A DNA stretch of 64,000 bases from Crateriforma conspicua (GTDB lineage Bacteria; Planctomycetota; Planctomycetia; Pirellulales; Pirellulaceae): positions 3,348,001-3,412,000 of the forward strand of contig NZ_CP036319.1 in the NCBI RefSeq assembly GCF_007752935.1, given 5' to 3'. The position numbers and the translations under genes are program-made. Shown piece by piece: positions 24,277 to 46,498 of the stretch; the stretch's first letter is position 1, and every line of letters starts with the position of its first letter. A model generated the notes under the pieces. The model made no database searches. It saw only the letters and a program-made list of their open reading frames with translations, and was not told where the DNA came from.

Positions 24277-25473
<1,197 letters not shown>

Positions 25474-25624: not shown

Positions 25625-28261
25625 ATGATGCGCATTTTGCTGGCTGCCTTTTTCGCGGTGTCTTTCGCCGCCACGTCGATCGGTCTTGCCGAAGATCGCC
25701 CCAACGTTTTGTTGATCCTGGTGGACGACCTAAAGCCGGCGATCGGCGCGTTCGGCAACGAAACGGCCCAGACGCCGAATCTGGACGATCTGACACGTCG
25801 GGGCATGCGTTTCGACGCCGCGTATTGCAACCAAGCCGTTTGTGCACCGTCACGGTTCACGTTGATGCTGGGATCGCACAGCACGTCCACGGGGCTGTAC
25901 GGGCTGGGCAATCGGTTGCGTGAATCGGATCCCGATGCGGTAACGATGCCCCAGCATTTTGCCGCAAACGGGTATCGCACCGAATCGTTGGGCAAGGTCT
26001 TTCACATCGGACACGGGAACATCGGTGATCCCGAATCGTTCCAGGTGCCGCACTTCAAAGAAAAAGTGATCGAATACGCCGATCCGGCCAGCACCGATGG
26101 CGGCAATCTGACTCGCGAAGAAGCCTTCTTTACCAACCAGAAACTAGGCGAAATTAAATCACTGCCTCGCGGTGCCGCCTATGAATCACCCGACGTCGCC
26201 GACACCGCCTATGCCGACGGACGCGTCGCCGAGGAAACCATTCGGCGATTGGAAGCCGCCAAGAAGCGACGGCAAACCGAGGGCACACCGTTCTTCATCG
26301 CCGCCGGTTTCGCACGACCGCACCTGCCGTTTTCGGCTCCGAAAAAGTACTGGGACCTGTACGATCCGGCCGAGTTGCCCATGCCGGAAAATGAGCAGTT
26401 ACCGCAAGGTGCACCGGAGGTGGCCGGCAAACGCGGCGGTGAAATCAGCAATTACAAGCCGGTACCGGAAGAGCGTGAGGCGTCGTACAGCGATGATTTG
26501 AAACGGAATCTGATTCACGGTTATTACGCGGCGACCAGTTTTGTCGACGCACAAATCGGTAAAGTCGTCCAAGCGGTCGACCGACTAGGCTTGGACGACA
26601 ACACGATCATCGTGCTGTGGGGCGATCATGGTTTCCACTTGGGCGATTTGGGCATTTGGACCAAGCACACCAATTTTGAACAAGCCAATCGGATTCCCAT
26701 CGTGATTGTCGCGCCGGGAGTCGCGGAGCCGGGATCGTCCACCGGTCAATTGACCGAGACGGTCGACATTTATCCGACGCTGGCGGAACTGGCCGGCTTG
26801 CCGAAACCCACCGGTCCACAGCCGATCGACGGTGTCAGCTTGGTGCCGGTGTTGAAAGACCGCGATGCGCGTGTTCGCGATCACGCTTACCATGCGTACC
26901 CCAAAAAAATGATGGGACGCGCGATTCGGACCGATCGTTATCGCCTGGTCCAGTGGAAACGAATCGGGGCACCCGACTTGGACGCGGAATACGAACTTTA
27001 CGATTACCAATCGGATCCGCTGGAAACGAAAAACTTGGCCGCGGACATGCCGCAAGTGGTGCGTCGCTTGTCGGCGATTCTGGCAACGTACCCACAGGCT
27101 GTTCCGCGAGCGGGAACGAAATCTGCCGCCGGTAAAAAGAAGAACGGCAAGGGGCAAGCCAAGCCAAAGGCCGCCGCGGTGGACGCCCAATCGTCCACCA
27201 TCGCCGGTCGCTGGTCAGCCAAGCGTGCGAACAATTGGTACCGCCAAATCGATTGGCCGCTGGGCGCCAACTTCGTCCCGTCCACCGCGATCAACCAACT
27301 GGAAATGTGGCAGGAAGCCACCTTCGATCCGGACACGATCGACCGCGAACTGGGCTATGCCGAAAAGATCGGTATGAACACGATGCGGGTGTTCTTGCAC
27401 GACATCCCTTGGCGAACCGATGCCGAAGGGTTCTTTCGCCGTGTCGACCGATATCTGGAGATCGCCGATTCGCACGGCATCCGCACGATGTTCGTTTTCT
27501 TTGACGGCGTCTGGCATCCGAACCCTGTCGCGGGTTTACAGCCACAACCGGTGCCAGGCGTGCACAATTCCGGCTGGGTCCAATCGCCCGGCCGAACGAT
27601 CTTGGACGATCCCGCCGGGCAGGACGCGCTCAAGCCCTACGTGCAATCGGTGCTGCGTCGCTACGCCGACGATTCACGTGTGCTGGTCTGGGACTTGTTC
27701 AACGAACCGGACAACGGCAACGGAAACTCCTATGGCCTGGCCGGCCAGAACCTGGAACTGAATCCGGACGTGAAACGACGGCGGGCTCATGAGTTGTTGG
27801 AAAAGACGTTTCGCTGGGCCCGCGAGGTCAATCCGTCACAACCGCTGACGGTCGGACTTTGGACCGGCGATTACGTGAACAAGCCACGTCCGATCGACCG
27901 CTTGGTGTTGGACAACAACGACGTCCATTCGTTTCACACTTACGGAGGACCGCAGACGGCGCGTCGCAAAATGGAGGATCTGTTGGCTTTGGGGCGACCT
28001 TTGTTGTGCACCGAATACATGGCGCGTGGCAACAACAGCACCTTCGCCGGCGTGTTGCCGATCCTGAACGAATTGAAGGTGGGGGCGTACAACTGGGGTT
28101 TCGTCAACGGCCGATCGCAGACGATCTATCCCTGGGATTCTTGGCAAGCCGCCTACACGTCGATTCCGGATCCTTGGTTTCACGACATCTTTCACACCGA
28201 CGGTCGTGCCTATGATTCGGCCGAAACGGACCTGATCCGCCGTCTGAGCGAATCGAAATAG
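25625..28261 (+). CDS. Secreted sulfatase fused to a clan GH-A-like glycoside hydrolase
   Basis: The protein has 878 residues from the ATG at 25625 (or the next ATG at 25628) with a signal peptide (MMRILLAAFFAVSFAATSIG). Residues about 25-490 are a type I sulfatase of the iduronate-2-sulfatase-like branch. The formylglycine cysteine is C73 in VCAPSRF, with LLILVDDLK and WGDHGFHLGDLGIW for metal binding. A Lys/Ala-rich linker (GKKKNGKGQAKPKAAA) follows. Residues about 545-878 form a TIM-barrel hydrolase resembling GH5-type enzymes: acid/base E694 in DLFNEPDN and probable nucleophile E797 in CTEYMARG. The fusion suggests one polypeptide that removes sulfate and cleaves a nearby bond in a sulfated glycan. 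The substrate cannot be read from sequence. Confidence 0.9.
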   Translation: MMRILLAAFFAVSFAATSIGLAEDRPNVLLILVDDLKPAIGAFGNETAQTPNLDDLTRRGMRFDAAYCNQAVCAPSRFTLMLGSHSTSTGLYGLGNRLRESDPDAVTMPQHFAANGYRTESLGKVFHIGHGNIGDPESFQVPHFKEKVIEYADPASTDGGNLTREEAFFTNQKLGEIKSLPRGAAYESPDVADTAYADGRVAEETIRRLEAAKKRRQTEGTPFFIAAGFARPHLPFSAPKKYWDLYDPAELPMPENEQLPQGAPEVAGKRGGEISNYKPVPEEREASYSDDLKRNLIHGYYAATSFVDAQIGKVVQAVDRLGLDDNTIIVLWGDHGFHLGDLGIWTKHTNFEQANRIPIVIVAPGVAEPGSSTGQLTETVDIYPTLAELAGLPKPTGPQPIDGVSLVPVLKDRDARVRDHAYHAYPKKMMGRAIRTDRYRLVQWKRIGAPDLDAEYELYDYQSDPLETKNLAADMPQVVRRLSAILATYPQAVPRAGTKSAAGKKKNGKGQAKPKAAAVDAQSSTIAGRWSAKRANNWYRQIDWPLGANFVPSTAINQLEMWQEATFDPDTIDRELGYAEKIGMNTMRVFLHDIPWRTDAEGFFRRVDRYLEIADSHGIRTMFVFFDGVWHPNPVAGLQPQPVPGVHNSGWVQSPGRTILDDPAGQDALKPYVQSVLRRYADDSRVLVWDLFNEPDNGNGNSYGLAGQNLELNPDVKRRRAHELLEKTFRWAREVNPSQPLTVGLWTGDYVNKPRPIDRLVLDNNDVHSFHTYGGPQTARRKMEDLLALGRPLLCTEYMARGNNSTFAGVLPILNELKVGAYNWGFVNGRSQTIYPWDSWQAAYTSIPDPWFHDIFHTDGRAYDSAETDLIRRLSESK

Positions 28262-44803: not shown

Positions 44804-46498
44804 ATGAAACAATACTTATTGATGACCTTGGGCCTTTGTTGGGCCGGACTTTGGTTAGGGTTGCCGCCGTGTCATGCCGACACGCGACCCAATTTCGTCT
44901 TCATTTTGACCGACGATCAGTCGTACGGGATGATGGGGTGCGACGGCAATCAATTGACTCAAACGCCCAACCTGGACCAGCTGGCGAAAGATGGCGTCTT
45001 CTTTGATTCCGCCTATGTTTCCAGTGCGATCTGTACGCCCAGCCGAATATCGATTTTTTTGGGCCAGTTCGAGCGTAAGCACGGTGTGAATTTCAACTCG
45101 GGGACCAGTGTCGCGCCGCAAGCTTGGAAGAAGTCGTACCCGGTGCTGTTGCGCGACGCCGGGTATTACACCGGGTACGTCGGCAAGAACCACGCACCGA
45201 TTGGTGATGGCGGTTATGACAGCGGGCTGATGGAGAAGTCGTTCGACTACTTTTACGCCGGCCATCGGCATTTGACGTTCTATCCCAAGGATCGGCACGC
45301 GATCTTTAATGACGCGGCTTTTGATACCCAGGTAGAAATCTTGTCCGAAGGGGCGACGGATTTCTTGTCAAATGAACACCGCTTGGGGCGAGCGATCCGT
45401 TTTCTGGACGTTCGGCCGACCGAGCGACCGTTTTGTCTGAGCGTGTGTTTCAACCTACCGCACAATGCGGGTACCGGGTCGATGGCGCTGCGTGATTCGG
45501 ATGATGAAATTTATAAAACGCTGTATCGAGATCAAGAGATCCCGATGCCGCCGCACTACGTGGCCAAAGCCGATATCAAACAGCCCAAAGTCCCCGCCGA
45601 CGTCTGGCGAGTGTCGGATCGTCAAACCGGATACGACCACGTTGACAATCCGGACGACAACCGAGAACGAATCATCCGCAAAATGCAGGCGATGACGGGG
45701 ATCGATCGCATGGTCGGTCAGTTGCGTGAAAAGCTGGCCGAGTTGGACGTGGATCAAAACACCATTTTGGTGTTCGCGTCCGATCACGGATTGTTCATGG
45801 GCGAACAGGGCCTTGGTGGCAAAGCACTTTGCTATGAAAAGGTCACGCATATTCCCATGATGATTTACAACCCATTGGCGGAATCGAATGCGCGCGGCCG
45901 GCGATGTGATGAACTGGTCCAGACGGTGGACTTGGCCCCGACCATGTTGGACTATGCGGGTGTCGACGTTCCCGAAACGATGCAAGGCAAATCGCTGCGA
46001 GGTTTGATCGACCAGGACGGCGACGCGGTTCATGATTACATCTTCACCGAGAACCTTTGGGTTACCCACTTTGGGAATCCCAAGATCGAAGCGGTCCAAG
46101 ACAAGCGTTGGAAATACATCCGTTACTATCGCAACAATTGCATGTCGGCCGAGGCGAAGATCGGAGCGGCCGCTCAGCTGGGATTGAAGCAGACCGCGGC
46201 GCTGTACGGCGTCAGCGATCCGATGATGTTCCACTATCGTGATTTGGTGGAATCTTCGCTGCGTACGCCGTTTCCCGACTACGAAGAACTGTACGACTTG
46301 GCCAATGATCCGAGCGAGTTGAACAACCTGGCCGCGGATCCGAAACACGCGCGTCAACTGAATCGACTTCGCAAGGTGTGGCGTCAGAAACTGCGACAGG
46401 CTCGTGGCACCGAACCACCGGCGGTGCTGCGTTACACCGACGAAAGCGAACTGGAACGCCAGCTTGCATCGAAACAATCAAAATCTGGTAACCGTTGA
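44804..46498 (+). CDS. Secreted type I sulfatase
   Basis: The protein has 564 residues from the ATG at 44804; a GTG at 44801 is an equal alternative. The signal peptide MKQYLLMTLGLCWAGLWLGL ends before HADTRPNF. Sulfatase motifs are FVFILTDDQSYGMMG, the formylglycine cysteine C77 in AICTPSRISIFLGQF, FASDHGLFMGEQGL and GKALCYEKVTHIPMMIY. It needs a formylglycine-generating or anSME-type activating enzyme, which is not in this window. It lies between the PhoD-like phosphatase and the Gfo/Idh/MocA oxidoreductase, suggesting shared use of a sulfated and perhaps phosphorylated polymer. Confidence 0.93.
   Translation: MKQYLLMTLGLCWAGLWLGLPPCHADTRPNFVFILTDDQSYGMMGCDGNQLTQTPNLDQLAKDGVFFDSAYVSSAICTPSRISIFLGQFERKHGVNFNSGTSVAPQAWKKSYPVLLRDAGYYTGYVGKNHAPIGDGGYDSGLMEKSFDYFYAGHRHLTFYPKDRHAIFNDAAFDTQVEILSEGATDFLSNEHRLGRAIRFLDVRPTERPFCLSVCFNLPHNAGTGSMALRDSDDEIYKTLYRDQEIPMPPHYVAKADIKQPKVPADVWRVSDRQTGYDHVDNPDDNRERIIRKMQAMTGIDRMVGQLREKLAELDVDQNTILVFASDHGLFMGEQGLGGKALCYEKVTHIPMMIYNPLAESNARGRRCDELVQTVDLAPTMLDYAGVDVPETMQGKSLRGLIDQDGDAVHDYIFTENLWVTHFGNPKIEAVQDKRWKYIRYYRNNCMSAEAKIGAAAQLGLKQTAALYGVSDPMMFHYRDLVESSLRTPFPDYEELYDLANDPSELNNLAADPKHARQLNRLRKVWRQKLRQARGTEPPAVLRYTDESELERQLASKQSKSGNR

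Follow-up and report, generated by a model that had tools for sequence, protein, structure and literature searches.

To our knowledge, the substrates of most sulfatases are unknown. Proteins that join a sulfatase to a glycoside hydrolase (GH) are already known. P36 of Formosa agariphila is described as an S1_25 sulfatase together with a GH78 rhamnosidase, acting at consecutive steps in the ulvan pathway (PMC8511951). For the planctomycetes P1 and P2 from Porphyra, an estimated 34 and 21 multidomain sulfatases, respectively, were reported, mostly with a GH; these sulfatases also carry GH, LamG and further domains, gene fusion was proposed as their origin, and the account drawn on here gives estimated numbers without the family or function of the fused GH (PMC4807772). 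P18_S1_7 of F. agariphila (6HHM), single-domain in its solved chain of 475 aa, is an endo-2-sulfo-D-xylose sulfatase of ulvan (PMC9096561). Both 6hhm and iduronate-2-sulfatase (5fql, 6ioz) are placed in S1_7, which also includes two characterised kappa-carrageenan 4-sulfo-galactose sulfatases (PMC5066984, PMC9096561). Among GH5 enzymes, the mycobacterial GH5_13 protein GlfH1 (Rv3096) is an exo-beta-D-galactofuranosidase, releasing galactofuranose, and has no sulfatase part as described (PMC10115798).

The locus considered here lies in a 64,000-nucleotide stretch of Crateriforma conspicua DNA, referred to as the window (contig NZ_CP036319.1, positions 3,348,001 to 3,412,000). Its product, like P36, combines a formylglycine sulfatase with a GH in one probably secreted protein, and both catalytic domains are intact. 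It differs from P36 in sulfatase subfamily, in GH clan and in the sugar proposed, galactose instead of rhamnose. With P18_S1_7 it shares the CAPSR and other aligned motifs, but the window protein has two domains. Its GH is compared with GlfH1 by description; Tsukamurella, a mycolata genus, has a homologue of the window GH domain (47 %). No description of a window-type sulfatase joined to a GH5-like domain was found in the open-licence literature; both the pairing and the target proposed for it are apparently novel. The domain arrangement, which the initial annotation took as possibly new, is a variant within a known planctomycete habit.

A sulfatase and a GH5-like barrel in one reading frame

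The fused gene is an uninterrupted ATG-to-stop frame (Table 1). Pfam matches were obtained in both halves, with PF00884 (residues 26–391, 141 bits against a cut-off of 25) and PF16347 (residues 340–478, 65.3 bits) in the N-terminal part and PF00150 (residues 646–824, 30.7 bits against a cut-off of 23.5) in the C-terminal part. The initial annotation had read the frame as a sulfatase followed by a hydrolase, which these matches bear out. The residues that it had numbered, C73 in VCAPSRF, E694 in DLFNEPDN and E797 in CTEYMARG, are all in place, leaving the catalytic residues of both halves intact. Secretion is probable, judging from the hydrophobic leader.

Table 1. Features of the fused gene and its upstream neighbour (positions in the window)
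Feature	Position	Strand	Basis
galK, galactokinase; start codon chosen by hand; ends 151 bp upstream of the fused gene	24277..25473	+	TIGR00131, 346.4 bits against 226.65
Fused gene, 878 aa + stop: sulfatase, linker, GH5-like barrel	25625..28261	+	ORF and Pfam; frame kept in G001
Hydrophobic leader, residues 1–22, probable signal peptide	25625..25690	+	Hydropathy
S1 sulfatase half, residues 23–497; nearest solved relative 6HHM (P18_S1_7)	25691..27115	+	
C73 codon (CAPSR), expected to become formylglycine	25841..25843	+	Same motif aligned in 6HHM
Lys/Ala-rich linker, residues 498–529, predicted disordered	27116..27211	+	
GH5-like clan GH-A barrel, residues 528–878	27206..28258	+	
E694 codon, expected acid/base	27704..27706	+	Invariant in 114 sequences
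E797 codon, expected nucleophile	28013..28015	+	Invariant in 114 sequences

The N-terminal half belongs to sulfatase family S1, with PF00884 over its curated cut-off, the C-x-P-S-R motif and the conserved metal and catalytic segments. Its best solved match was 6HHM (E 5e-88), with which the segments CAPSR, VDDL, GKVFH, DHGFHLG and KHTNFE align, followed by iduronate-2-sulfatase (5fql, 6ioz). Judged from these solved-structure matches, the half appears to be S1_7-like. The host genome contains five PF03781 (FGE-type) matches over cut-off, each a candidate formylglycine-generating enzyme (FGE).

When modelled alone, the GH half gave a barrel (mean pLDDT 96.9, pTM 0.95) in which E694 lies right after strand 159–166 and E797 ends strand 266–270 (model residues). 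The prediction has the layout of clan GH-A and GH5, with a catalytic Glu after beta-4 and another at beta-7. The clan GH-A hydrolase claimed initially is thus supported by a confident model, in which the C-terminal half does fold as a barrel, and by two glutamates that show no variation across the 114 aligned relatives. Membership of GH5 proper is likely but not certain, because some relatives (e.g. L012, L047 and L111) score below the PF00150 cut-off. The nearest solved folds were GH5 mannosidases and mannanases (14–20 % identity), the best being 7bob (Z 25.8, rmsd 3.3, 289 aligned). Profile and single-sequence searches of solved structures gave weak matches and no close solved relative. The GH5 exo-beta-mannosidases (Op5Man5, 7bob; GH5_18) therefore share the barrel fold with the window GH, but the two stand apart at 20 % identity to 7bob. 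Should the GH5-like domain fall outside the known GH5 subfamilies, it would represent a new GH subfamily.

A full-length model was built from an alignment in which the sulfatase-only rows had been shortened by 85 residues. Residues 490–525 had a pLDDT under 50, the overall pTM was 0.53 and the sulfatase half was of middling confidence, which speaks for the linker being a flexible tether between domains without a fixed arrangement. The linker, Lys/Ala-rich as the initial annotation had it, spans approximately residues 498–529 and is predicted to be disordered.

A sequencing frameshift or missed stop joining two genes had been named as one threat to the reading of a fused gene. A genome of the same genus (G001) has a frame of identical length, with the gene order around the locus also kept, and a sulfatase of the window type shares one frame with the GH domain at five further loci (L011, L039, L040, L041 and L044), some in other genera. 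These observations contradict the artefact, for which no supporting point was found; it was ruled out and we give it a negligible probability. Between the window and G001, dN/dS was 0.070 for the sulfatase half and 0.075 for the GH half, while the linker showed one synonymous change and zero amino-acid changes. Third-position differences between the two genomes climb sharply within the gene (window 26,600–28,261 against L130), from 0 to 13 per 100 codons over residues 1–650 to 15 to 21 over residues 601–850, and dS was 0.093 in the sulfatase half and 0.236 in the GH half. Intragenic recombination is perhaps the source of this rise between the sister genomes.

Fused, reordered and separate forms among relatives

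A search of 147 relatives, own genome included, detected the GH domain in 32 of them (E 1e-20 or better). Among the 30 loci from this search, which leave out 16 further matches without a locus, a sulfatase and the GH occupied one frame in three: L009 (the window), L010 (G001) and L011 (G085). In a separate genome collection 427 related GH stretches were found, and six loci among the best 80 of these 427 had a sulfatase in the same frame. Four carried a fused sulfatase of the window type with 63–78 % identity (L039, L040, L041 and L044) and two a different type (L047 and L055). The search for the same architecture elsewhere, proposed in the initial annotation, thus returned fusions in G001, L011 and L039–L041, and the reverse order, GH-sulfatase, in a Phycisphaeraceae MAG (L044, sulfatase identity 63 %).

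The planctomycete loci L011, L039, L040 and L041 have a four-domain frame of approximately 1,380–1,400 aa with the order sulfatase, LamG-like, GH, GH43. The L011 stretch ends before the frame does; L131 contains the whole frame, which has 1,376 aa counted from its start. At the linker site these relatives have approximately 140–170 residues with a LamG-like match, whereas the window protein has a short linker and stops after the GH barrel, without GH43. Other arrangements comprised GH-GH43 (L012, L013, L045, L046, L052, L054, L057, L060 and L070, among which L045, at the end of its contig, starts within a LamG-like piece), GH-GH43-GH43 (L053), GH-GH43-other sulfatase (L047), GH-other sulfatase (L055), GH43-GH (L048 and L049), GH2-GH (L042) and GH-aldose epimerase (L058). 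A fusion of the GH with a cyclophilin-type peptidyl-prolyl isomerase was found in a Phycisphaerae MAG (L102:3872-5554). With the exception of this last, all arrangements fall in a single clade that holds 32 of the 114 rows of a quick GH tree (support 95). The system is modular, and the window form is a two-domain variant of it.

The partner GH43 resembles xylosidase/arabinosidase structures. Elsewhere in the window genome, a GH2-GH43 protein (L136/L137, G000:C1:2427707-2430283, minus strand, frame of 1156 aa) has a GH43 part 60 % identical to that of L039 and a GH2 part 62 % identical to that of L042, and is built of modules absent from the window protein or carried by its relatives. In Seonamhaeicola (L155:5159-7789, minus strand), a GH-sulfatase fusion lies amid several sulfatases, a GH29 fucosidase and a sortilin-type protein.

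The two activities are also encoded by separate genes. A same-strand sulfatase, 54–60 % identical to that of the window, adjoins the GH gene directly in L125, L132 and L133 and lies one or two genes away in L119, L120, L122, L123 and L124; in L047 a window-type sulfatase is nearby on the opposite strand. Such near-neighbour pairs were found in Bacteroidota, Pseudomonadota and other planctomycetes. A sulfatase with at least 50 % identity was present within the 4-kb flanks of 10 of 27 loci in the GH clade of the window and of 0 of 53 others (Fisher 5e-6); the clade had been picked with knowledge of the tree, and related loci do not count as independent. The statement that planctomycetes normally encode the two as separate genes is only partly accurate: separate, adjacent same-strand genes occur in G112, G095 and Aeoliella, but the pair is fused in the four four-domain loci, and multidomain sulfatases have been published for planctomycetes (PMC4807772).

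The six Pirellulaceae fusions group together in a 21-row sulfatase tree (one clade, 100/100). The partnership has been fused at least twice, because L044 lies outside this clade. The GH tree puts the GH2-GH protein of the Verrucomicrobia locus L042 among the Pirellulaceae fusions; the test did not reject a single fusion clade in that tree, with a p-AU of 0.425 (seven rows, L045 included) or 0.221 (six rows).

Galactose genes and plasmid homologues

The galK gene upstream of the fused gene is the one galactokinase match in the genome and occupies the same place in G001. In L124, a MAG, the sulfatase/GH pair is followed by galE, an SSF (sodium:solute symporter) gene, galK and galT. In addition, galK adjoins the GH2-GH gene in L042, galE adjoins the GH gene in L067, and GalM occurs fused to the GH (L058) or in its vicinity (L122 and L047). 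Four Leloir-type queries at 1e-40 had matches in 12 of the 80 GH loci and in 2 of the 80 controls (p 0.009), where the controls were 9-kb pieces from seven genomes only and some GH loci were shorter than 9 kb. In seven of the 12 positive loci, GalM lay outside the sulfatase-linked clade, or inside it without a sulfatase. This indicates that the galactose link belongs to the GH family as a whole and not to the fused clade alone. GalM neighbours are not specific to the sulfatase-linked clade, galK or galE was seldom found as a neighbour, and no galactokinase-group Leloir match lay in the 20 kb around the four-domain relatives. Breakdown of anhydrogalactose through an enolase-type gene in L122 was considered and rejected, the NCBIfam matches being far under cut-off.

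Evidence on the ring form of the sugar came from partner genes and plasmids. The partner GH2 proteins of L119 and of the window genome match the beta-D-galactofuranosidase 9j6n (7e-108 and 9e-87, respectively), ranked after 7sf2; subfamilies GH2_18 and GH2_19 are reported to act on furanosides (PMC12243196). A homologue of the GH occurred in 44 plasmid records, of which 11 were opened, nine of these being annotated. On two Sphingobium plasmids (L200 and L204), a UDP-galactopyranose mutase (PF03275, 275 bits) lies two genes from the GH homologue; these loci count as one, since they are close copies (86 %). The Sphingobium mutase gene is a glycosyltransferase-UDP-galactopyranose mutase fusion accompanied by an RmlD-type gene, and the GH homologue there has 46 % identity. 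The mutase was found in 0 of the 80 GH loci and in none of the control pieces. Further plasmid neighbours of the GH were galactonate dehydratase (Natronorubrum) and aldose epimerase (Polymorphobacter), and the other five annotated records listed no galactose gene. The plasmid homologues are annotated as 'cellulase family' or '1,4-beta-xylanase'. Although 742 plasmid records match the whole protein, 0 cover 80 % of it, indicating no fused copy among them. E. coli accounts for 17 of the 44 records; in the one E. coli record opened, the IncF plasmid L198, the homologue (39 %) has an MFS transporter and a LacI-type regulator as its neighbours, and insertion sequences are close by.

Candidate function and competing readings

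We favour, with a probability of roughly 0.45, a secreted bifunctional enzyme in which an S1_7-like sulfatase desulfates and a GH5-like barrel releases D-galactose, most likely as beta-D-galactofuranose. The N-terminal formylglycine sulfatase would remove a sulfate ester, and the tethered GH5-like retaining barrel would then cleave the same or a neighbouring residue to yield the sugar. The flexible linker would hold both sites near one chain without imposing a fixed geometry, and the freed galactose would enter the cell, where the product of the adjacent upstream galK gene would phosphorylate it. A sulfated glycan, as the initial annotation had suggested, is plausible as the target. The natural substrate might be a sulfated green-algal glycan with galactofuranose (Galf) side chains; beta-D-Galf side chains are reported on the sulfated xylogalactoarabinan of Cladophora (PMC5694217), and a sulfated Galf-containing arabinan from Codium (PMC9695659). 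The furanose link derives from the partner GH2 and from a single type of locus, found on two related plasmids, not from the GH domain itself.

The same bifunctional enzyme could instead act on a red-algal, carrageenan-like galactan of galactopyranose, with the sulfatase taking off a galactose sulfate and the barrel as a beta-galactosidase. All of the Leloir evidence would fit this target equally well, the two characterised kappa-carrageenan sulfatases are S1_7 members (PMC5066984, PMC9096561), and L122 has two GH127 genes. However, the Pfam scan, which covered a selected part of the neighbours, showed no GH16, GH82 or other carrageenase, and a pyranose is at odds with the furanosidase-like partner GH2 and with the UDP-galactopyranose mutase adjoining two homologues; we consider a carrageenan-like target unlikely. 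It is rather unlikely that ulvan, a sulfated arabinan or another sulfated heteroglycan is the target, with the barrel cutting a different sugar (a mannoside, xyloside or arabinoside) and the nearby galactose genes serving other branches of the same glycan or being there by chance. Unrelated hosts repeatedly carry galK, galE, galT or GalM close to this GH family or fused to it, which argues against this reading, as does an identity to the mannosidases of only 14–20 %. On its side are the nearest folds of the barrel (GH5 mannosidases and mannanases), the partner GH43, similar to xylosidases/arabinosidases, the GH127 and GH29 in some loci, and the nearest characterised sulfatase, whose action on ulvan xylose-2-sulfate (PMC9096561) also counts against a galactose product. 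An ulvan substrate deduced from kinship with 6HHM was considered separately and demoted to a part of this alternative, no polysaccharide lyase having been found in the Pfam-scanned part of the neighbours.

The fusion could also be real while its halves attack different substrates, or while one half is inactive and the fusion neutral. The long disordered linker with no fixed domain arrangement (pTM 0.53) is compatible with such uncoupling, as is the absence of GH43 and LamG modules from this locus in the window genus, whether through loss or because they were never there. Intact catalytic residues and low dN/dS in both halves, together with the recurrence of the same pair fused in two orders and as neighbours, make it improbable.

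Returning to the sulfatase-galactofuranosidase reading, it is possible, with the odds against it, that the loci represent a dedicated system for sulfated Galf-bearing glycans, whose parts (sulfatase, GH5-like galactofuranosidase, GH43 and furanosidase-type GH2) have time and again been fused, separated and put in a new order. That such a system spans at least five phyla or classes, with the window protein as its sulfatase-galactofuranosidase, is put forward just as tentatively. With neighbouring galactose genes hinting at the product of the fused partner, one sulfatase type gains a substrate that can be tested, and so does a widespread, poorly named GH family. If the Galf reading is true, it would show marine bacteria dismantling little-studied green-algal sulfated glycans, and the cellulase/xylanase annotation of the GH family would be misleading.

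A second sulfatase is present in the window (44876-46039, plus strand), where two matched stretches fall in a 588-aa frame, and 237 matches to the fused protein, counted by stretch, occur across the host genome.
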